This document shows positions 6,838 through 16,066 of a stretch of 64,000 nt of DNA, piece after piece. Source of the stretch: Pyrinomonadaceae bacterium (GTDB taxonomy: Bacteria > Acidobacteriota > Blastocatellia > Pyrinomonadales > Pyrinomonadaceae); assembly GCA_030841085.1 (NCBI GenBank), contig JAVEDP010000032.1, positions 62,001-126,000 on the forward strand, in the 5' to 3' direction. Position numbers and translations under genes: made by a program. Within the stretch, counting starts at the first letter, position 1; every line of letters begins with the position of its first letter. The notes under the pieces were generated by a model. The model saw nothing but the letters and a program-made list of their open reading frames with translations, was not told the origin of the DNA and ran no database searches.

Positions 6838-6872
6838 AAAAAAAGGCCGCGGATAAAAATTTATCCGCGGCC
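6838..6872 (-). terminator. Rho-independent terminator of the coiled-coil gene
   Basis: A perfect 12-bp stem (GGCCGCGGATAA pairing with TTATCCGCGGCC) with a 4-nt loop is followed, on the minus strand, by a run of seven T. It lies 65 bp past the stop codon at 6937 and would end the three-gene transcript coming from 15182. Confidence 0.9.
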
Positions 6873-6936: not shown

Positions 6937-9900
6937 TCACGCTGCCGACGACGCGTTCTCGCGGGCCTGGCTGCTGATTTGATAAATCGCTTCCATCACT
7001 GCCGAGCGAACTTCCGACGGTAGTGAACCGCGCACTGCAAGCCGGCGAAAAGCGGGCACGATATCTGGTTGCCCACTAAGTGCCAGCAGCTTAACCACCG
7101 CGATGCGTACTTCAACGTTTGGATATTCTTCAATCGCCTGCATCAAGGGCTTGACTTCGCCGGCCTTGGACATCAGGAACAGCAACGAAAATGCATCGTA
7201 AGTCTTCTCACGACTTTCGCCGCTCAAGCTTCCAACCGCATTTGCTGCCAGTCCAGACGATGCAAGGGCGTGGCCAATCTTGCGGCGCCGATCCGGAGTT
7301 CCTTCTCGCAAAGCCCGCGTAAAACTCGCGGCACGATCGGATTGCAGCGCATAAAGTGCGTGCGCCGCAGCGTTACGAACCTCCAACGAAGGATCGTCAA
7401 ACGCGCGGGTGATGCAACGGAAGGCGTCGTCGCCGCCGATTGCCACCAGTTCGCCAAGCGCCGCTTCGCGTTCAGCGGCTTCCGCACTGCTTAGCCGTTG
7501 CAGAAGTTCTGAAGGAATGCCAGCGTCGTCTTCAGCGAAAACGATTCCCTTCTCGGCCATCAAAACATCAATCGCCTTGGCTTGCTGATGAACTTCGGAC
7601 CCGCTCGTTGTCGCCTCCTGAACAGGCGTTGCCTCCGCAACAACCGGAAGTTCAACAACGCTCTCGTCCTGGTGCGCCAGCGAAACGTCCGACCAGGAAA
7701 ACTCAAGCGCAGCCGGTTCATTGTCGATGGCTTCGACCTGGTAGGTTGGTTCGTTCGCTTGTTCTTGTGCTAATTGCTCGCGCAGACTGAACTCGTGCTG
7801 TTCCTGCAGATGCGCTTCAACTTCTGCATGCCGGCGGGCCTCGTCTTCAGCCTTCACACGCGTTTCTTCGATCAGGCGTTGCGCCTCTTCTTCGGCTTCC
7901 AGTCGCGCTTTCCGTTCAGCTTGCAGACGCGCCTCTTCCTCGGCGTGCTGGCGAACTTCGTCTGCCAATCGTTGGGTCTCTTCTTCAGCCTCTGCACGAG
8001 CCGCAGCCAGGCGTTCTGCTTCTGCTTCTGCTCTCGCGTGCGCTTCCTGCTCGGCGAGCAGTAACGCTGCTTCTACTTTCACTCGCTTCTCGGCTTGGGC
8101 GCGCAACCGGGCAACATCTTCGGCCTCCGCGTGCGCTGCCTCAGCCAGGCGCCGGGCTTCTTCTTCAGCTTGCGCGCGAACTTCGGCAAGTCGGTTTGCT
8201 TCTTCTTCAGCTCTCGCGTGCGCTTCCTGCTCGGCGTGCAATAGCGCTGTTTCTACTTTCACTCTGTTCTCGGATTGGGCACGCAAACGGGCAACATCTT
8301 CGGCGTCCGCCCGCGTTGCCTCAGCCAGGCGCCGGGCTTCTTCTTCAGCTTGCGCACGAACTTCGGCAAGTCGGTTTGCTTCTTCTTCAGCTTTTGCGCG
8401 CGCTTCCTGCTCGGATTGCAACAGCGCTTCTTCTTGTTTCAGCCGCGCCTCGGCTTGCGCTCGACGTCGCGACTCTTCTTCGGTCCGTGCGTGTAGTTCT
8501 TCGGCAAGACGCTGCGCTTTTTCTTCAGCTTCGGTACATGCTTCCTGATCCGCCAGCAGTCGGGCTTCAGCTTCCTTAAGACGCGCTTCTGCTTCTTCGC
8601 GACGGCGACGCATTTCTTCTTCTGCTCTTAGGTGAGACTCTTCGACTACCCGATGCGCCTCTGCTTCAGCTTTCGCGCGCGCTTCCTGCTCTGCTTGCAG
8701 ACGCGCTTCTTCCTGTTTCAAACGCGTTTCAACTTCCACGCGCCGGCGTGCTTGTTCTTCGGCCTGCGCGCGAACTTCGTCGGTCAGGCGTTCGGCTTCT
8801 TCCTCAGCTCTTTCACGCGCTTCACGTTCGGCTTCCAGACGGGCTGCCTCTTTCTGCAAACTCTTTTCCACTTCAGCGCGACGGCGAGATTCCTCTTCGG
8901 CGTTCAAGCGGGTTTCTTCAGCCAGGCGCTGGGCTTCTTCCTCAACTTTGGCGCGGGCTTCGCGTTCGGCCTGCAGACGTTCTGCTTCTGCTTTCAGTAG
9001 CGTTTCGATTTCGGCGCGTTTGCGTGCTTCTTGCTCGGCCTGCGCGCGGGCTTCCTCTGCAAGCCGCTGTGCTTCCTCTTGCGCACGAATTTCCTCGGCG
9101 ACGCGTTGCGATTCTTGCTCGGCGCGCGCCGCTTCCTCTTTCAAACGAGTCTCAGCTTGAGCACGTCGCTGGATTTCAGCTTCGATGCGCTGGCGCTGCT
9201 CTTCTTCGGCTTTACTCAAAGCCATGATCTCGGACTTGATTCGCTGCTCTTTTTCAGATCGTTGTCGGGCTTCGGCCTCGGCTCTTTGCTTCACCGTTTC
9301 CAGACCAGCGATGTGACGTTCTTCTTCTTCGGCCTGTAGGCGCGCCTGTTCGGCAGCACGCATTTGCTCTTCCTGCGCACGATGTCGCGCGTCGGCCAGC
9401 ATCAACTCTTCGGCCTGGCGTCTGGCTTCAGATTCGGCGCGCTGACGAGCGATCTCAGCCTGGCGACGAGATTCTGCTTCGGCCTTGTTGCGCTCTTGAG
9501 TTTCAACCAGCAGCCGCGCTTCTTCTTCCGCCTTGCGTCGGGCCTCGTCCAATTCAGAACGGCGGCGCGACAATTCAGCGGCGACCTGCATCAGGGTTTC
9601 CTGCTCAACGGCCAATTGCGATTCTTCAGCACGACGGCGTTCCTCGGCGTCGCGGCGCATGTGCTCTTCTTCGCTCTGGCGCTTAACTTCTTCGGCCGCA
9701 CGGACACGAGCTTCGGCTTCCGCACGCGCTTTCGCCTCCTGCTCGGCCTGCATGCGCGCCTCGACTTCGGCCCTGAAACGGGCTTCCTCGGCAGCGCGGG
9801 CCTGTGCTTCAGCTTCGGCCTGACGTCTGACTTCTTCTTCGGCGCGACGTTTCGCGTCCTGCTCGGCGCGAATGCGCGCTTCAACTTCGGCTCGCAAACG

Positions 9901-11469
9901 AGCTTCTTCAGCGGCGCGAGCTTGCGCTTCCTCTTCGGCCTTGCGTCTCAGTTCTTCTTCCGCTCGCCGGCGCAATTCTTCTTCGACACGGCGGCGCACC
10001 TCTTCTTCAGCTTTACGACGCGCCTCCTCTATCGCACGGGCGCGCATTTCTTCTTCTGCTCTGCGCTTGGCTTCTTGCTCGGCGCGGCGGCGCGCTTCCT
10101 CTTCAGCCAACTTGCGAGCAGCTTCGGTTTCGGCCCGCTTGCGCGCAATCTCTTCCGCGGCTTTGCGCAGTGTTTCAGCTTCTAAACGAAACTTCGCTTC
10201 TTCTTCGGCACGCTGACGCGCTTCCTCTTCGGCACGGTTGCGGGCCTCGCGTTCGGCCAACACGCGTGCTTCTTCTTCAGCTTTCTTGCGAGCTGCTTCT
10301 TCTTCCAAACGGCGGCGCATTTCTTCTTCGGCGCGAACACGCACTTCGATTTCCAGGCGCGCCTTGGCTTCACGTTCGGCCTTCAGTCTCGCTTCTTCTT
10401 CGGCTTGTTTACGCGCGACTTCGGCTTCGATCCGCTTGCGTTCCAATTCCTCGGCTGCGCGCCGCAACGCTTCCTCTTCGATGCGCAATTTTTCTTCAGT
10501 CGCAGCAAACGCGTCCGGCAAAGAGTCAGAAGAAATAGGAGGCGTGACGTTAACTACCGTCGACTGCTCAAAAGAATTCAGATACTCAGAAAAGATTTCG
10601 CGTTTGGCCGGCGCCGGCACAACTGCTGCGACTGGTTTTACCGGAACCTCAACAACTGGCGCGACGGGACGGCTAACGGTTTTCGCTTGCGTAACTGAGA
10701 TAGCATTGATCGCCTGGTGAATTACTGCTTCGGGAAGTTGACGGCTGTTCTCGCGCGCAAGCAATTCATGCAGCGGTGAAATCGCAGCGGCATCGCCGAC
10801 CTGGGCCAACGCTTCTACTGCTGCGCGGCGCACTTCCGGCGCACTGTCATAAAGCGCGCCGATAAGGTGAGCGGTCGCACTCGAGGTGCGCGCGATTCCT
10901 AATTTGCGGGCTGCTCCAGCGCGTTCTGCCGGCGAATCGGCGGTGCGCAATTGCCGCGTGACGTCGTCGAAATATCCATGGCCCATGAAGGCGCGTCGTG
11001 CCGCTTCCTGGGTGTCGCGATTGCCGCTTGACAGCGCGGTGAGTAACTGGGCGGCAATAATCTGGCGCGTGGCTGAGTCTTGCGCATCAACGACCTGCGC
11101 ATCGTAATCGCGGTTTGCCAACAGTTTCTTTACTTCACCCTCGGCACGTTCAAACTGCGCGGGAGTAATGGACAACGGCTGTTCTTGAATCAAGGATATT
11201 GCCTCCGGAACCTTTGTAGGACTGGCGGGAGCCCGACCTTCGGATACTTCTGGGCGTTGGGCGGTCGAAGCTTGAGTTTGGCTGTCTGACTGATTTTTCG
11301 TTTTGAGAAAAGCGATCAACTGGGGCTTGCGGGCGGAGAGTTCGTCGCGCAGCGAAGGCGTTAAGGCGCCCTTTGGAGCATCGACGACAAGGCGATCGGT
11401 GCCGTCATTTTTGAGGGTTAGCTTGATGCCAAGCGCTTCGCAAGTTTGAAATAATGAATCAACGGTCAT
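6937..11469 (-). CDS. Giant TubC_N-like / HEAT / charged single-helix / HEAT protein
   Basis: The 1510-residue product has no signal peptide or membrane segment, so it is probably cytoplasmic. Residues 1-58 resemble a TubC_N docking domain (PKGALTPSLRDELSARK). Residues about 125-255 are HEAT-like repeats (PEVRRAAVEALAQVGDAAA). Residues about 323-1238 are an Ala/Glu/Arg-rich helix built largely on an eight-residue repeat of type xRAEEEAR. Residues about 1295-1505 are a second HEAT block. Both HEAT blocks resemble those of the protein at 12735-15182. The start overlaps the preceding gene by 4 nt (ATGA). A structural or scaffold role is inference; no enzyme motif is visible. TolA-like similarity would be compositional only. 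Confidence 0.8.
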   Translation of the reverse strand: MTVDSLFQTCEALGIKLTLKNDGTDRLVVDAPKGALTPSLRDELSARKPQLIAFLKTKNQSDSQTQASTAQRPEVSEGRAPASPTKVPEAISLIQEQPLSITPAQFERAEGEVKKLLANRDYDAQVVDAQDSATRQIIAAQLLTALSSGNRDTQEAARRAFMGHGYFDDVTRQLRTADSPAERAGAARKLGIARTSSATAHLIGALYDSAPEVRRAAVEALAQVGDAAAISPLHELLARENSRQLPEAVIHQAINAISVTQAKTVSRPVAPVVEVPVKPVAAVVPAPAKREIFSEYLNSFEQSTVVNVTPPISSDSLPDAFAATEEKLRIEEEALRRAAEELERKRIEAEVARKQAEEEARLKAEREAKARLEIEVRVRAEEEMRRRLEEEAARKKAEEEARVLAEREARNRAEEEARQRAEEEAKFRLEAETLRKAAEEIARKRAETEAARKLAEEEARRRAEQEAKRRAEEEMRARAIEEARRKAEEEVRRRVEEELRRRAEEELRRKAEEEAQARAAEEARLRAEVEARIRAEQDAKRRAEEEVRRQAEAEAQARAAEEARFRAEVEARMQAEQEAKARAEAEARVRAAEEVKRQSEEEHMRRDAEERRRAEESQLAVEQETLMQVAAELSRRRSELDEARRKAEEEARLLVETQERNKAEAESRRQAEIARQRAESEARRQAEELMLADARHRAQEEQMRAAEQARLQAEEEERHIAGLETVKQRAEAEARQRSEKEQRIKSEIMALSKAEEEQRQRIEAEIQRRAQAETRLKEEAARAEQESQRVAEEIRAQEEAQRLAEEARAQAEQEARKRAEIETLLKAEAERLQAEREARAKVEEEAQRLAEETRLNAEEESRRRAEVEKSLQKEAARLEAEREARERAEEEAERLTDEVRAQAEEQARRRVEVETRLKQEEARLQAEQEARAKAEAEAHRVVEESHLRAEEEMRRRREEAEARLKEAEARLLADQEACTEAEEKAQRLAEELHARTEEESRRRAQAEARLKQEEALLQSEQEARAKAEEEANRLAEVRAQAEEEARRLAEATRADAEDVARLRAQSENRVKVETALLHAEQEAHARAEEEANRLAEVRAQAEEEARRLAEAAHAEAEDVARLRAQAEKRVKVEAALLLAEQEAHARAEAEAERLAAARAEAEEETQRLADEVRQHAEEEARLQAERKARLEAEEEAQRLIEETRVKAEDEARRHAEVEAHLQEQHEFSLREQLAQEQANEPTYQVEAIDNEPAALEFSWSDVSLAHQDESVVELPVVAEATPVQEATTSGSEVHQQAKAIDVLMAEKGIVFAEDDAGIPSELLQRLSSAEAAEREAALGELVAIGGDDAFRCITRAFDDPSLEVRNAAAHALYALQSDRAASFTRALREGTPDRRRKIGHALASSGLAANAVGSLSGESREKTYDAFSLLFLMSKAGEVKPLMQAIEEYPNVEVRIAVVKLLALSGQPDIVPAFRRLAVRGSLPSEVRSAVMEAIYQISSQARENASSAA
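8031..8390. repeat. Two tandem 180-bp units inside the coiled-coil gene
   Basis: The segments 8031-8210 and 8211-8390 are nearly identical, differing at scattered bases. Each encodes 60 residues containing VRAQAEEEARRLAEA and ARLRAQ. The unit length is a multiple of three, so the frame is kept. The block starting at 8391 shares only its first part. This looks like a recent tandem duplication that lengthened the helix. Confidence 0.85.
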
Positions 11470-12674
11470 AGCTCGAAGACCTCCCGTTCTTCGCTACCGG
11501 ACTTATTCTCGGCAACGGCGACGGAACTGTTTGATGGTTTTGAAAACACTGATGCGTTGCCGGCAGCAACTTCAGCAGCAGGCGCGAACGCAGGTTTTGA
11601 GGCAGCGCGCCTCCATTCGGATTTTGTGGCTTCCTGGGTTATCGGCGCGACTGGCCCACGTTCTGCCGGAGACTCAGTCAATTCGTCCAACTCCACTTTG
11701 CTGTCATACTTTGGTTGCGCCAGGGGACGCTTGGCGCGCGTATCGTTAGATTTCGTCGTCCGCCCGCGATAGAAAAATGCGGCCGCCAAAGCAAGCAGTG
11801 CTGCCAAAATGAATGCTGCGAGCAATGCCGCATTTCGATTTGCTGAAAACCACTCGCCCAGTTTCGAGCTTGGCGAATTGGAGGAAGCAACGGCAGGTTT
11901 AGAAAGCGGCGTTGAACTCGCCGCCGGGGTATAGCTGGACGTTGCCGGATAATTTGAAACCGGCGTTGGCGAAGCGACGCTACGCGGAGTGGAACTCGCA
12001 ACCGGGGCGTTGTTTACCGGACTAGTTCGGCCCTGGTTCTTTTCAGCTCTCCCGTTTCGTGCGGGTTGACGTTGTGCTGCATTAATTTCCGGACCCGGTG
12101 CATTGGCGTATCGTTGACGTGAAACCTGGGGTCCGTCAGATGGAATCGGTCCGGCCGCGTCGCGTTGTCGATCCTGATTGCCCTGATTTCCCTTGTTGTC
12201 TTTAACAGCAGATGTGCCGCGGTTCGCTGCGACGCTCGCGTACTGACCTCGATTACCCGCGGTAAATATTACTTCGAGACGGTTCGCATGTTGTTCCACG
12301 TGCGCACTCGCGCCCAATTGCAACTTGAAGGAAACAACAACGCTATCGCCAACTTTTTGCACTTGCACATCGTCAAATCCGTTGCCATGAAAGCGCGGCT
12401 GTGAAAAGGAAAACTCGGCCAGCGGGATCTTCACATAAAAGCGATCGCCACGCCGAAAGGCCTCGTAGTCGTTCAGAGCTGAGTCCGAATTTACGGTGAC
12501 GCGCGCGCCGTCGGCCGCCTGAACCATTTCGACGGAGGTTACATGCTTTTGTGCTTTGAGCTGTGCCGAACTCGAAATGAACGCTACCCAGACAATGCAG
12601 ATAGACGCCAACAAAACGACGCCGCAACGCTTTCGGTTCGCAAGCACTCTCGAATTGTTCCAGTTGGTTTTCAT
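11466..12674 (-). CDS. Membrane protein with periplasmic AMIN-like domain
   Basis: The 402-residue protein has an N-terminal hydrophobic segment (about 17-36) and an AMIN-like beta domain at about 42-137 (ARVTVNSDSALNDYEAF, GDRFYVKIPL, NRLEVIF). A Ser/Thr/Pro/Asn-rich linker follows to about 275, then a second membrane segment (about 280-302) ending in YRGR and a 97-residue tail. Positive charges after the second segment place the tail in the cytoplasm. AMIN domains are known from cell-wall amidases and secretins and bind the envelope. It is the middle gene of the three-gene set, 60 nt after its neighbour and overlapping the next gene by 4 nt. Function is unknown. Confidence 0.75.
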   Translation of the reverse strand: MKTNWNNSRVLANRKRCGVVLLASICIVWVAFISSSAQLKAQKHVTSVEMVQAADGARVTVNSDSALNDYEAFRRGDRFYVKIPLAEFSFSQPRFHGNGFDDVQVQKVGDSVVVSFKLQLGASAHVEQHANRLEVIFTAGNRGQYASVAANRGTSAVKDNKGNQGNQDRQRDAAGPIPSDGPQVSRQRYANAPGPEINAAQRQPARNGRAEKNQGRTSPVNNAPVASSTPRSVASPTPVSNYPATSSYTPAASSTPLSKPAVASSNSPSSKLGEWFSANRNAALLAAFILAALLALAAAFFYRGRTTKSNDTRAKRPLAQPKYDSKVELDELTESPAERGPVAPITQEATKSEWRRAASKPAFAPAAEVAAGNASVFSKPSNSSVAVAENKSGSEEREVFEL

Positions 12675-12734
12675 TGGGGCTATACAACAAACTGCTAACT
12701 CATTATGCGACTGGCAATCCGCACAGTCCAGAGA

Positions 12735-15182
12735 TCAGAATTCAAATTCATCGAGATGCGCCTGAACTTCCTGATCGAGATGCAACTCAACGTTTTGCTG
12801 AATATCCGCAGCCATGTAGTCAATCTCACTTGCTTCGGTCTGCTCGTCGGGCAGCAGTTCAGCTTCAATTGGTTCCTCGGTTTTTGGTTTGTCCTGTTCG
12901 AGGCGATACAACGCGTCCAACAGAGCTGTCTTAACGTCCTCACGCATACCGTCTTTCACGGCCAATTCGCGTAGCTGTCCAAATATTTCCGGCTCACCAG
13001 TACGAGCGAGCAGGTGGACCGCCTTGAGACGGACATCGATGTTTGGATGATCCGAAATGGCATTAAAGATGGGTTCGCTGACTTTGGCTTTGGCCAACAA
13101 ACAGATCAGCGTGAAAGTTTCGTACGCCTGGCGATGGTCGCTGGAAGCAAGCCGATCGAGATTCTGAGAAACGATGCCAGCCTGAATGCAAGCAGCAGCG
13201 ACGTTCTGAATTGTCTCTTCGTCGCCAGACTCAATCACGCGCACGTAGGCATCAGCGCGATCGAAACTGAAGCGACTAAGCGAACGCGCGGCAGCGGCGC
13301 GCACCTCACGCGTCTCATCAGACAAACCAAGCAGAACGGCGGGAAAGACTGATTCGTGGTCGATGGCCGCAAGACCTGAGATTGCCTGCGATCTGATAGC
13401 CGGCTCGGGATCATTGCGTGCAACCAAAGTGATCGCGCCAACCGAACTCTGGACCGGGAACTGCACCAATGTCTTCAACGCTTGTGAACGTTCGTCGACG
13501 TCGTGGCTTTCCAGTGCCACCAAAGCCTCGGCGAACGCTGGATCATCGGAACCTTCGAGCAACTCTTCAACAGCCGAGAGCGGCTCGAGATGTGTGATTT
13601 CTTCGACGATGTTGCCGGCGTGCCCCGAACCCAGCAAACCTGGTTCAGGAACCGCGTCAAAGAAGTCGAGGCCTTCCACCGAACAGGCACTAAGGGTCCG
13701 GCTCAGCAACGCGCTCGGAACATCGGGGTGCATTCGCGCAATGTCGAGCAACGCGCCGATGGCGGACGGAATTTTCAGTTCGCCGATACTGACAACAGCC
13801 TGATTGCGTACAATCGATTCAGAATCGTAAAGACTCTCGAGCAAAAACGGTAAGGCTGCGGACGATTTGATATCACCAAGTGAACGCGCGGCTGAGGTTC
13901 TCTCAAACGCGTCAGGCGCAAGCAACAAGGCCGCACACTGGCGTGCGACAAAACCATATTCTTCCAGCGCCTCGCGCGCGCGACGTCGCGCCGACTCATC
14001 AAGGTCCGAAGAATTAACACCTTTTATCAACGACGTCTCAATGGCGCGACGATCATCGCTGCCGCGTGAAGCGAGTACATCGATTCGGTGAGCTTGTCCC
14101 AAAATCAACTTGCTAACTTCCTGATCGATTCTGTAAGCGCCATACAGCGACGTCGGACCTGCGGGCAAACGAACGACTGGCGACTGTGAAGAACCGTTTG
14201 CGCCCGAACTAATTCTAGCCAAACTTGTATTGGCGACGGCTATTTGGTTGTTCGCTGACGGCACGATGGCCTGCTCGTCAAGATCTTCTTCTTCGGCGTT
14301 AGCCACAAGTCCCTCGCTGGCGGCGACCACCTCAGAGCGCGAACGCAGTTTATGTGAAACCAGCAAGCCAAACAGGCCGAGTGAAAAGACGATCAACACG
14401 CTGGTTCCTGAAAACACAGACGCCATCCAGCCTTCTTCCTGAGGTTGAGTGATAATTTGAGAAGGGCCGGAATCAGCGGTCGTGTTCTGGGCCGCTTCAT
14501 TAGGAACGATTAACGCCGGGTTCACATTGTTATTAGGCGTCGCCGCCGATGTTGCTTGCGGCGCGGAAGGCTGAGTACTGAGACTTAAATCTTCAACCGT
14601 CGATGAGAGCTTGAAGGGTTGGCTATCGTTCGATGTCTTTTCTTTCGAGCGCGGATCCTCAAAAAGCAGTTGTTCGTCAGGCGATACACTGACAGCGCGG
14701 TCCATCTCCAATGCTCTTGGCTGCAGTTTGCCCGAAACGTTGAGTTGCATCCCGTTGCCGTCAACCTGTGCGTTGACCTCGGCTCCGGCTTTTGTTTGCA
14801 CTAGAACTTCCAGCGACGTGCCCAGGCGTCGGAGCCGGACCCCGCGCACAACACTTAGCGAATCAAGCGCGACAGTGTTTGGCAGGACTACGTGATAACC
14901 CTCAGCGTCTTGCCAGGTTTGAGCCTTACTGAGCGGGCCATCCGCGACTATTGAGACCGCAGTTCCGCCCCCGGAAGGTTGCGCTGAGATCGTGGAGACT
15001 TTGACCGGAACGCGCAGCCGTTGGGCTTGCGAAGCGAGCAGCGGCAGGATGAACACGACAACTAACGACAACATCAGGCCGGCGAGTCTTCTGGATTTGA
15101 CCAGACGAGCGGCACGATCAGCGTCATGATTAGTCGCAGCACGATTTTTAGAATTGAATATCTGCATTTCTTTAGATGGCAT
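12735..15182 (-). CDS. AMIN - transmembrane - HEAT-repeat protein
   Basis: The 815-residue protein has a membrane or signal segment at about 33-52 and an AMIN-like domain at about 57-152 (KVSTISAQPSGGGTAVSIVA, GYHVVLPN, GMQLNVSG). A disordered Ser/Thr/Gln linker leads to a second membrane helix at 258-276 followed by SHKLRSRSE. From about 350 to 800 it is HEAT/ARM-like repeats (SESIVRNQAVVSIGEL, EPAIRSQAISGLAAI, REVRAAAARSLSRF, IDVRLKAVHLLARTGEPE). Predicted topology is AMIN outside and HEAT in the cytoplasm. The design recalls FimV/HubP-type polar hubs (wall-binding domain, one helix, cytoplasmic repeats), but that is an analogy only. It is the first gene of the set, 110 nt after the response regulator. 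Confidence 0.75.
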   Translation of the reverse strand: MPSKEMQIFNSKNRAATNHDADRAARLVKSRRLAGLMLSLVVVFILPLLASQAQRLRVPVKVSTISAQPSGGGTAVSIVADGPLSKAQTWQDAEGYHVVLPNTVALDSLSVVRGVRLRRLGTSLEVLVQTKAGAEVNAQVDGNGMQLNVSGKLQPRALEMDRAVSVSPDEQLLFEDPRSKEKTSNDSQPFKLSSTVEDLSLSTQPSAPQATSAATPNNNVNPALIVPNEAAQNTTADSGPSQIITQPQEEGWMASVFSGTSVLIVFSLGLFGLLVSHKLRSRSEVVAASEGLVANAEEEDLDEQAIVPSANNQIAVANTSLARISSGANGSSQSPVVRLPAGPTSLYGAYRIDQEVSKLILGQAHRIDVLASRGSDDRRAIETSLIKGVNSSDLDESARRRAREALEEYGFVARQCAALLLAPDAFERTSAARSLGDIKSSAALPFLLESLYDSESIVRNQAVVSIGELKIPSAIGALLDIARMHPDVPSALLSRTLSACSVEGLDFFDAVPEPGLLGSGHAGNIVEEITHLEPLSAVEELLEGSDDPAFAEALVALESHDVDERSQALKTLVQFPVQSSVGAITLVARNDPEPAIRSQAISGLAAIDHESVFPAVLLGLSDETREVRAAAARSLSRFSFDRADAYVRVIESGDEETIQNVAAACIQAGIVSQNLDRLASSDHRQAYETFTLICLLAKAKVSEPIFNAISDHPNIDVRLKAVHLLARTGEPEIFGQLRELAVKDGMREDVKTALLDALYRLEQDKPKTEEPIEAELLPDEQTEASEIDYMAADIQQNVELHLDQEVQAHLDEFEF

Positions 15183-15292: not shown

Positions 15293-16066
15293 TTATTGTT
15301 CGTCGCTGAACTTGTAGCCAATTCCCCAAACGGTCAAAACCATTTGCGGGTTTTCGGGGTTATCTTCGATCTTCGCTCGCAATCGGTTGATGTGTGAATC
15401 AATCGTGCGATCGTAGCCTTCGTAGGAATAATCCCAAATTTTTTCAAGCAGGTATTTTCGAGGAAACACCCTACCCGGGTTTGCTGCAAATAGCCGCAGC
15501 AGATCAAACTCCTTGGGAGTCAAATCCACCTGGCGTTCCCCGATGGTAACTTCACGCCTCGCCGGATCGATGCGCAAATTACCGCGGCTGATTGGCGCTT
15601 CGTCCTTCGCGCCATCCACGCTCGCCGGGGTCTTACTTCGGCGGAGCACTGTCTTAATCCTGGCTTCCAGTTCGCGCAAACTAAATGGCTTAGTAATGTA
15701 ATCGTCTGCGCCCATCTCGAGGCCAAGTACTTTATCAACCACGTCGTCTTTCGCTGTGAGCATGAGAATTGGTACGTGATTCGATTTTTCCCTGAGTTCC
15801 CGACAAACTGCTAAGCCATCCATCTTCGGCAGCATGATGTCTAAAACGACAGCGTCAGGACTTTCATCCATTGCTGTCTTGACTCCCATCAAGCCGTCTT
15901 CGACTGTTTTCACGTTGTACCCCGCGCGCGAAAAATATTCGCTGATAGCACTGGAAATATTCTCATCGTCTTCGACGACAAGCAGTGAAACCTTGCGCTC
16001 GCCTGGTTCGGTCGGATGACTATTTTCTCTAGGATTTTTCTGTCTGTCAGCAGCTGTAGTTGTCAT
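15293..16066 (-). CDS. OmpR/PhoB-family response regulator (orphan)
   Basis: A receiver domain covers about residues 25-145, with the acidic pocket VVEDDE and phospho-acceptor Asp76 in VVLDIMLPKMDG, the conserved Thr in MLTAKD and Lys in ITKPFS. A winged-helix trans_reg_C domain follows (LTPKEFDLLRLF, YDRTIDSHINRLRAKIE, VWGIGYKF). It would activate or repress transcription when phosphorylated. No histidine kinase gene is next to it. It lies 110 nt upstream of the AMIN-HEAT genes in the same direction with no clear terminator between, so co-transcription or regulation of that set is plausible but unproven. Confidence 0.93.
   Translation of the reverse strand: MTTTAADRQKNPRENSHPTEPGERKVSLLVVEDDENISSAISEYFSRAGYNVKTVEDGLMGVKTAMDESPDAVVLDIMLPKMDGLAVCRELREKSNHVPILMLTAKDDVVDKVLGLEMGADDYITKPFSLRELEARIKTVLRRSKTPASVDGAKDEAPISRGNLRIDPARREVTIGERQVDLTPKEFDLLRLFAANPGRVFPRKYLLEKIWDYSYEGYDRTIDSHINRLRAKIEDNPENPQMVLTVWGIGYKFSDEQ

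Follow-up and report, generated by a model that had tools for sequence, protein, structure and literature searches.

The three-gene locus

The DNA analysed here (the window) is a stretch of 64,000 nucleotides (nt) from a Pyrinomonadaceae bacterium (contig JAVEDP010000032.1 of assembly GCA_030841085.1), lying on contig 9 of a genome of 4.69 Mb and 43 contigs. It carries an operon of three minus-strand open reading frames (ORFs), genes 1, 2 and 3, with a gap of 60 nt between genes 1 and 2 and of -4 nt, i.e., an overlap, between genes 2 and 3 (Table 1). The operon probably encodes two paralogous membrane proteins carrying HEAT domains, the second of which would be split into genes 2 and 3 and docked again through a C-terminal tail and a TubC_N domain. 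The hairpin beyond gene 3, with 12 pairs, 8 of them G-C, followed by TTTTTTT, ranked first in a terminator scan. It is a strong individual terminator candidate despite a chance-level number of sites (23 vs. 19.0 in shuffles, with a standard deviation of 4.3), which makes the total count uninformative. The three same-strand ORFs, their spacing and their terminator had all been proposed in a first-pass annotation made from the sequence alone, and the ORF coordinates and the hairpin scan bear them out.

Table 1. Features of the operon and of its borders (positions in the window; TM, transmembrane; aa, amino acids; H1, first HEAT domain)
Feature	Position	Strand	Evidence
Gene 1, 815 aa: N-terminal hydrophobic helix, AMIN-like domain, TM helix, two HEAT domains (H1-like and core-like)	12735..15182	-	
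AMIN-like domain, gene 1 residues ~57-151	14730..15014	-	hhalign, structure model
Internal TM helix, gene 1 residues 256-274	14361..14417	-	hydropathy; helix 259-289 in model
Two HEAT domains, gene 1 residues ~348-500 and 545-765	12888..14141	-	Pfam HEAT_2, model
Gene 2, 402 aa: AMIN-TM-linker-docking tail; predicted membrane half of split protein	11466..12674	-	
Predicted AMIN domain, gene 2 residues ~43-140	12255..12548	-	AlphaFold, VIA-align
Internal TM helix, gene 2 residues 283-301	11772..11828	-	hydropathy 2.73
E-E-R-E-V-F-E-L at the C-terminus of gene 2, putative docking tail	11469..11492	-	conservation across 10 splits
GGGAGG, Shine-Dalgarno-like site for gene 3, inside the R-E-V codons of the tail	11480..11485	-	
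ATGA overlap, gene 2 stop/gene 3 start	11466..11469	-	junction sequences
Gene 3, 1510 aa: TubC_N-HEAT (H1)-long charged helix-HEAT (core); predicted cytoplasmic half of split protein	6937..11469	-	
TubC_N (beta-hairpin docking) domain, gene 3 residues 1-58	11296..11469	-	Pfam PF18563, profile
Predicted beta-2 strand R26-L-V-V-D30, putative tail-binding strand	11380..11394	-	domain alignment
HEAT H1, gene 3 residues 101-262; part of the gene 2 half in the second type of split	10684..11169	-	
E/A/R-rich single-helix-like spacer, gene 3 residues ~301-1250	7720..10569	-	charge statistics
Core HEAT, gene 3 residues 1321-1505; well conserved, stands alone in some relatives	6955..7509	-	
Intrinsic terminator-like hairpin with T tract	6845..6872	-	terminator scan
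OmpR-type response regulator gene, upstream of gene 1	15293..16066	-	Pfam

Gene 3 starts with a TubC_N domain, matched by PF18563 at residues 3-56 with an E value of 5e-13 and 49.3 bits, for a cut-off of 26. A profile built from 13 TubC_N domains matches the docking-domain structures of AerJ, TubC, EpoB and Kj12, including that of the Kj12C/Kj12B complex (6ewv). HEAT_2 is also above the Pfam cut-off (E 5e-20), and the long region between the two HEAT domains is charged, opposite charges being found in 31.5% of its i,i+4 pairs (12.1% in shuffles) and like charges in 1.3% (12.4% in shuffles), a pattern that fits a single alpha-helix. No hydrophobic helix is found in gene 3 by hydropathy. The only Pfam models above their cut-offs in genes 1 to 3 are of the HEAT type or TubC_N, without any partner domain of the assembly lines formed by nonribosomal peptide synthetases (NRPS) or polyketide synthases (PKS). 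The HEAT domains of genes 1 and 3, the long helix and TubC_N had been read from the sequence in the first-pass annotation and are confirmed by Pfam and by the charge statistics; the importance of TubC_N had nevertheless been missed, as this domain, present at the locus in split forms only, is the key part of the system. Further proteins made of a coil and a core HEAT domain are encoded on contig 16 of the window genome (L060:6954-9653) and at L059:9055-13641; TubC_N does not match them, so that the tail of gene 2 is not expected to bind them.

Gene 2 contains two hydrophobic helices by hydropathy, one N-terminal and one internal. The AlphaFold model of the domain lying between them has a predicted local distance difference test (pLDDT) score of 86.8, and its identity as an AMIN domain is supported by its predicted fold, that of AmiC and PilQ, and not by its sequence. 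With VIA-align, the top five rows are AmiC (Z 13.1), the Synechocystis protein 5h3k (12.6) and PilQ (12.4, 11.6 and 11.4), and the next row is a small heat-shock protein (Z 8.4). Foldseek returned no match to the domain at an E value of 0.001 or better, PilQ appearing at 0.017 among small heat-shock proteins; the AMIN model of Pfam (PF11741) stayed below its 20.5-bit cut-off in genes 1 and 2 of the window, and hhalign against 16 Pfam-positive AMIN sequences gave probabilities of 1-3%. The AMIN domains proposed at first pass are thus retained for their fold (AmiC and PilQ, Z 11-13), while Pfam and profile comparison do not recover them. According to passages of a published study (PMC12403147), AmiC and PilQ bind peptidoglycan through their AMIN domains.

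Gene 1 has the same two hydrophobic helices by hydropathy, N-terminal and internal, together with a HEAT_2 match above the Pfam cut-off (E 4e-23). Its AlphaFold model (mean pLDDT of 71.5) shows a beta domain at residues 60-150, and the AMIN sets of genes 1 and 2 are related to each other (hhalign 99%, E 7e-18). Judged from these sequences, gene 1 is a paralogue of the protein formed by genes 2 and 3. Its AMIN-TM-HEAT-HEAT plan is found in the window and in most relatives; in the genus g3 (L080, L081, L082, L083, L032, L099 and L100), gene 1 has no AMIN domain and consists of a short N-terminal part with signal/TM helices, followed by the HEAT domains. Foldseek, when searched with the gene 1 model, found only generic alpha-solenoids such as alphaRep and importin-alpha. 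A role as a defence system was considered and rejected, as PADLOC detected in gene 1 a mere HEAT similarity, regarded as generic (HEAT-ARM_XIII, 4e-11; OloA, 6e-7), and found no match for genes 2 and 3.

Fused and split forms of genes 2 and 3

The HEAT region of gene 1 was searched in 119 genomes of the family and gave 31 matches at an E value of 1e-40; two of them (G092 and G128), covering about half of the query, were dropped, leaving 29 operon-bearing genomes. Outside the family, 23 genomes of the class gave nothing better than weak HEAT-type matches (best E 1e-9). A search with the gene 1 alignment found 27 named loci, of which six are named as Pyrinomonadaceae, two as Blastocatellia and the rest as Acidobacteria/Acidobacteriota. 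An AMIN ORF of the gene 2 type follows gene 1 in all of the 25 genomes in which the contig continues, the other four (G018, G077, G140 and G141) having a contig end or an operon spread over two contigs. This neighbourhood comparison agrees with the earlier claim that the genes stay together in relatives.

The second protein is not, however, always encoded by two genes. In 11 of the 29 genomes (G018, G022, G024, G029, G032, G034, G083, G085, G086, G132 and G133), a single intact ORF of 937-1392 aa encodes AMIN, TM helix, H1, linker and core. AMIN and part or the whole of H1 are likewise in one ORF in three genomes cut by a contig end (G026, G084 and G131), whereas the fused or split state of G077 and G140 could not be judged. 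Ten genomes (G000, G014, G017, G021, G088, G136, G137, G138, G139 and G141), including that of the window, have genes 2 and 3 as separate ORFs. The split is located before H1 in three of them (G000, G014 and G088) and after H1 in the remaining seven. The spacer of the split proteins is charged in all nine cases measured (443-1058 residues, 16-20% of Lys and Arg), and the linker of nine out of ten measured fused genes, G029 being the exception, has 283-448 residues with 2-5% of Lys and Arg. As genes 2 and 3 form one ORF in 11 relatives, the three genes of the window are not three independent components, and gene 3 is best described from these comparisons as the cytoplasmic half of the ancestral protein of gene 2.

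In the trees of the neighbouring proteins and of the operon proteins, split and fused lineages are mixed, although the two trees differ in detail. Topology tests were carried out on 29 sequences and 827 columns, G140, whose state could not be judged, being placed with its genus. A single split clade is rejected by the approximately unbiased (AU) test (p 2e-14). At least two split events, and perhaps three, would therefore have taken place, and re-fusion is possible.

The close relative G011, whose response regulator and UvrB are 96% and 99% identical to those of the window genome, has in place of the operon a 167-aa ORF (L048:5365-5868) made of the first 9 residues of gene 1 and of the end of gene 3. 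It looks as if it resulted from a clean in-frame deletion, but could also be an artefact of this metagenome-assembled genome (MAG).

Proposed docking of the two halves and alternative explanations

The junction between the two halves is conserved. In all of the ten splits, the upstream half ends with [ED]-R-E-V-[FI]-E-[LI]-COOH, the downstream half starts with TubC_N and the two are joined by an ATGA overlap. Both the tail motif and TubC_N are absent from the 11 intact fused genes, and the motif was found neither inside nor at the end of the 17 fused, partial and broken ORFs. Conservation is limited to the very end of the tail, the last 6 residues having a mean pairwise identity of 83% and the 20 preceding ones of 15%. 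The motif [DE]RE.[hydrophobic][EDK][LIV]-end is found in 10 of 561 called genes, which are the ten tails it was drawn from. TubC_N itself is present (E 0.001 or better) in 14 of the 119 genomes of the family, once in each: ten are the split genomes, where it lies at the operon locus, and in the other four (G003, G005, G034 and G086) it lies elsewhere in the genome.

These features are reminiscent of the Kj12 docking pair, in which, according to passages of PMC9113145, binding is confined to the five final residues of the tail, which lie antiparallel to beta-2, with salt bridges E28/R96 and R24/E98. The Kj12B tail of the rhabdopeptide system ends with ...YLRGEI, as given in part of another report (PMC6195595). 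An Arg is present at the R26 position in 13 of 13 aligned TubC_N domains and an Asp at the D30 position in the ten envelope ones; R26 and D30 of the window would be equivalent to R24 and E28 of Kj12C, the register being taken from hit coordinates only. The spacing of E(-2) and R(-6) in the tail of the window would suit an antiparallel pairing with them. The tail thus probably docks on the TubC_N domain of gene 3, rejoining the two halves non-covalently. A programmed frameshift joining genes 2 and 3 was also considered, but no slippery run was seen by eye at the ten junctions.

We propose that the operon encodes two paralogues with an AMIN domain in the periplasm, a TM helix and two HEAT domains in the cytoplasm, this sidedness being inferred. 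The second paralogue would be cut in two, gene 2 encoding AMIN-TM-tail and gene 3 TubC_N-HEAT-long helix-HEAT, and the synthesis of both is probably coupled by the ATGA overlap. The R-E-V-F-E-L-COOH end of gene 2 would most likely be added as a beta-strand to the beta-hairpin of TubC_N, in the manner of the docking tails between NRPS subunits, and the two parts would thereby be reunited at the inner membrane face. The rebuilt protein could then connect a wall-binding AMIN domain with a HEAT platform in the cytoplasm, borne on a long, stiff spacer. Such a wall-to-cytoplasm scaffold is put forward tentatively, its likelihood falling somewhat short of even. In the first-pass annotation, the third protein had been seen as the builder of a cytoplasmic scaffold, to which the two membrane proteins would link the wall; the membrane and HEAT parts of this proposal are kept, whereas the third protein is no longer an independent component, since genes 2 and 3 are fused in relatives.

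The strongest alternative, although improbable, is an ordinary gene fission, in which the tail would be a mere by-product of the ATGA overlap and the Shine-Dalgarno site, with TubC_N doing another job, such as the homodimerisation of gene 3. The codons of the tail do contain the ribosome-binding GGGAGG/GAGG of gene 3 and the last one has to be NTA, so that R-E-V is partly accounted for, as is the final Leu or Ile; moreover, the TubC docking domain is itself reported to be a homodimer (PMC6195595). The hydrophobic residue at -3 and the Glu at -2 are nevertheless unforced and are retained in all ten tails. Among 19 other gene pairs overlapping by 4 nt, four end in E-[LIV] and three of these are TubC_N partners, so that this ending is found in only 1 of the 16 pairs without TubC_N; the stricter ending hydrophobic-E-[LIV] is found in 1 of the 19, again a TubC_N partner. 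Finally, the presence of TubC_N at the locus in the split form only speaks against a mere fission.

Less likely is a set of three separate hub components, i.e., two membrane anchors and an independent cytoplasmic scaffold, comparable to FimV/HubP. It would account for the separate ORFs of the window, two with hydrophobic helices and one without, but not for the single polypeptide formed by genes 2 and 3 in 11 relatives or for a split position varying with the lineage. The least probable alternative is that the halves need not join, one of them being lost or repurposed and the core HEAT alone carrying the function, as could be suggested by the short core HEAT protein that occupies the operon slot in several relatives and by the 167-aa ORF of G011, but both halves are adjacent, with a conserved junction, in 10 of 10 splits.

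Besides the codon constraint mentioned above, several points weigh against a docked, wall-anchored pair of paralogues. The ten splits amount to only about two to three independent events. Each split type taken as a clade is only marginally rejected by the AU test (p 0.0145 and 0.018), with p values of 0.27 and 0.039 in the Shimodaira-Hasegawa (SH) test. Trees of the 58-aa TubC_N domain are unstable and two of them disagree on its possible donor: in the first, L113, a partner of a DUF3631 gene, groups with G000, G014 and G088 at 100, and in the second it falls outside this group, which G021 joins at 99. Several genomes are incomplete MAGs, so that one TubC_N per genome is a lower bound. In three relatives (G007, G016 and G134), one ORF runs from AMIN into H1 with a change of frame within or after H1, and the fused gene is thus broken without any docking part. 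In one NRPS system, the tail is reported to be unnecessary in vivo, the carrier protein being gripped by the domain directly (PMC13324335); a TubC_N domain therefore need not depend on a tail. Outside the locus, 16 of 27 other tails preceding TubC_N ORFs lack an E-[LIV] end. As to gene 1, no AMIN domain was detected by BLAST in six N-termini of the genus g3, nor by eye in a seventh, a result that makes two wall anchors, and with them a scaffold role, less probable.

Related systems, similar pairs and neighbouring genes

The closest known systems are the pairs of a short linear motif and a beta-hairpin docking domain (SLiM-bHD) of TubC, EpoB, Kj12ABC and enacyloxin. As in the window, the same Pfam domain is found at the N-terminus of the downstream protein, the upstream protein has a short charged tail ending with E-[LI], and the genes overlap. 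In the window, by contrast, the partners are AMIN-TM and HEAT/helix proteins, not carrier proteins or condensation domains, and the protein has fused orthologues devoid of the docking pair. The review passages of PMC9113145 report TubC_N/beta-hairpin docking in biosynthetic contexts only. Our literature search, which covered mostly titles and the beginnings of abstracts, with subscription papers largely outside, found no use of a docking pair beyond biosynthesis. A single polypeptide cut and rejoined by docking domains is also what Kegler and Bode (2020; PMC7496407) reportedly obtained by inserting docking domains into an NRPS. Compared with this artificial case, the split of the window is seemingly natural, is found at two positions and affects a non-biosynthetic protein.

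Other systems resemble parts of the operon. Like FliO with AMIN, for which passages of PMC12403147 propose an envelope-anchoring role, genes 1 and 2 would place a periplasmic AMIN domain next to a membrane helix. Unlike this FliO and unlike AmiC and PilQ, their cytoplasmic part is of the HEAT type, no flagellar or secretin domain is matched, and AMIN is under the Pfam cut-off. TolA has in common with gene 3 a long E/A/R/K helix, and the NCBIfam TolA equivalog scores 52.6 bits, below its cut-off of 59.45. Unlike TolA, gene 3 has no hydrophobic helix, its long helix is presumably cytoplasmic, and 9 of the 10 measured fused relatives have a Lys/Arg-poor, Pro-containing linker as a spacer.

FimV/HubP proteins combine a periplasmic LysM domain with cytoplasmic TPR repeats. 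The likeness to them drawn in the first-pass annotation holds for the general layout, a wall-facing domain and a cytoplasmic repeat scaffold, but not for the domains themselves, LysM and TPR being absent among the Pfam hits of the three window proteins up to an E value of 10. No paper was found by a literature search combining "AMIN domain" with "HEAT repeat". Our results describe, in some soil Acidobacteria, a conserved pair of membrane-HEAT proteins, in which a docking connector is apparently reused for a different job. If so, the docking pairs of NRPS/PKS engineering would also act as general protein connectors, and the natural fused and split orthologues would offer a comparison that engineers have so far constructed by hand.

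Similar tails precede other TubC_N ORFs of the phylum. Before NRPS-like ORFs (recognised by eye), they end with NREEIEL or AREYGEL; upstream of TubC_N ORFs, the tails of DUF3631 genes (Pfam) end with DREVFEL (L113) or DREHFEL, and that of a gene of L184, DUF3631-like by eye, with EREVFEI. An E-[LIV] ending is present in 11 of 27 such tails vs. 29 of 485 genes (p 9e-7), the 27 tails having been listed by hand, with some rows lacking a convincing partner gene, and the 485-gene background including split genes. In several replication-type genes, the C-terminal tail runs into, or directly up to, a small ORF that opens with TubC_N (L113, L115, L122 and L089, with DUF3631, and L184), and further loci of this type are L112 (DUF3987), L119, L088 (AAA_25) and L109 (DUF927). 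They would represent a second use of the docking pair outside NRPS.

Two of the replication-type tails, DREVFEL and EREVFEI, are almost identical to those of the envelope proteins. The junction DNA of one such pair differs from that of the window by 1 base in 26, a likeness partly forced by the codons and the ribosome-binding site. One speculative and rather unlikely possibility is that 'tail-ATGA-TubC_N' constitutes a portable cut-and-dock module of about 200 bp, which would be inserted in unrelated genes and make two docked proteins from one. Its hosts would then be NRPS, replication-type genes (DUF3631, DUF3987, AAA_25/Toprim) and, at least twice and at different positions, the envelope scaffold of Pyrinomonadaceae-type Acidobacteriota. 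Mobility of the replication-type pairs was not supported by a plasmid search with the TubC_N ORF of L113, which returned two cyanobacterial plasmid records, one of them annotated as a condensation-domain protein.

The response regulator gene is present on the fetched stretch of 25 of the 29 operon genomes and may regulate the operon. The gene downstream of the operon, which we take to be uvrB from its sequence, without a profile scan, was not found on the fetched stretches of G014 and G032. The operon sits between these two genes wherever both are found, with about 4.5 kb separating it from uvrB in G088. Other members of the genus carry a different set of genes in this slot: at L049:4821-9673 these encode a short core HEAT protein, a TPR protein, a DUF4388 protein and one of 526 aa that Pfam does not match, and genes of similar size occupy it in L050-L053 and L058. 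Upstream of the response regulator, L033:3259-5988 encodes an M1 peptidase that carries HEAT repeats at its C-terminus (Pfam, run on L033 only), and HEAT-matching ORFs of similar size lie upstream of the response regulator in L030, L085 and L099. Two small ORFs of the window, at 302-643 and 2515-2946, presumably encode MazF/PemK-type and PIN-domain proteins, which they resemble in their motifs.

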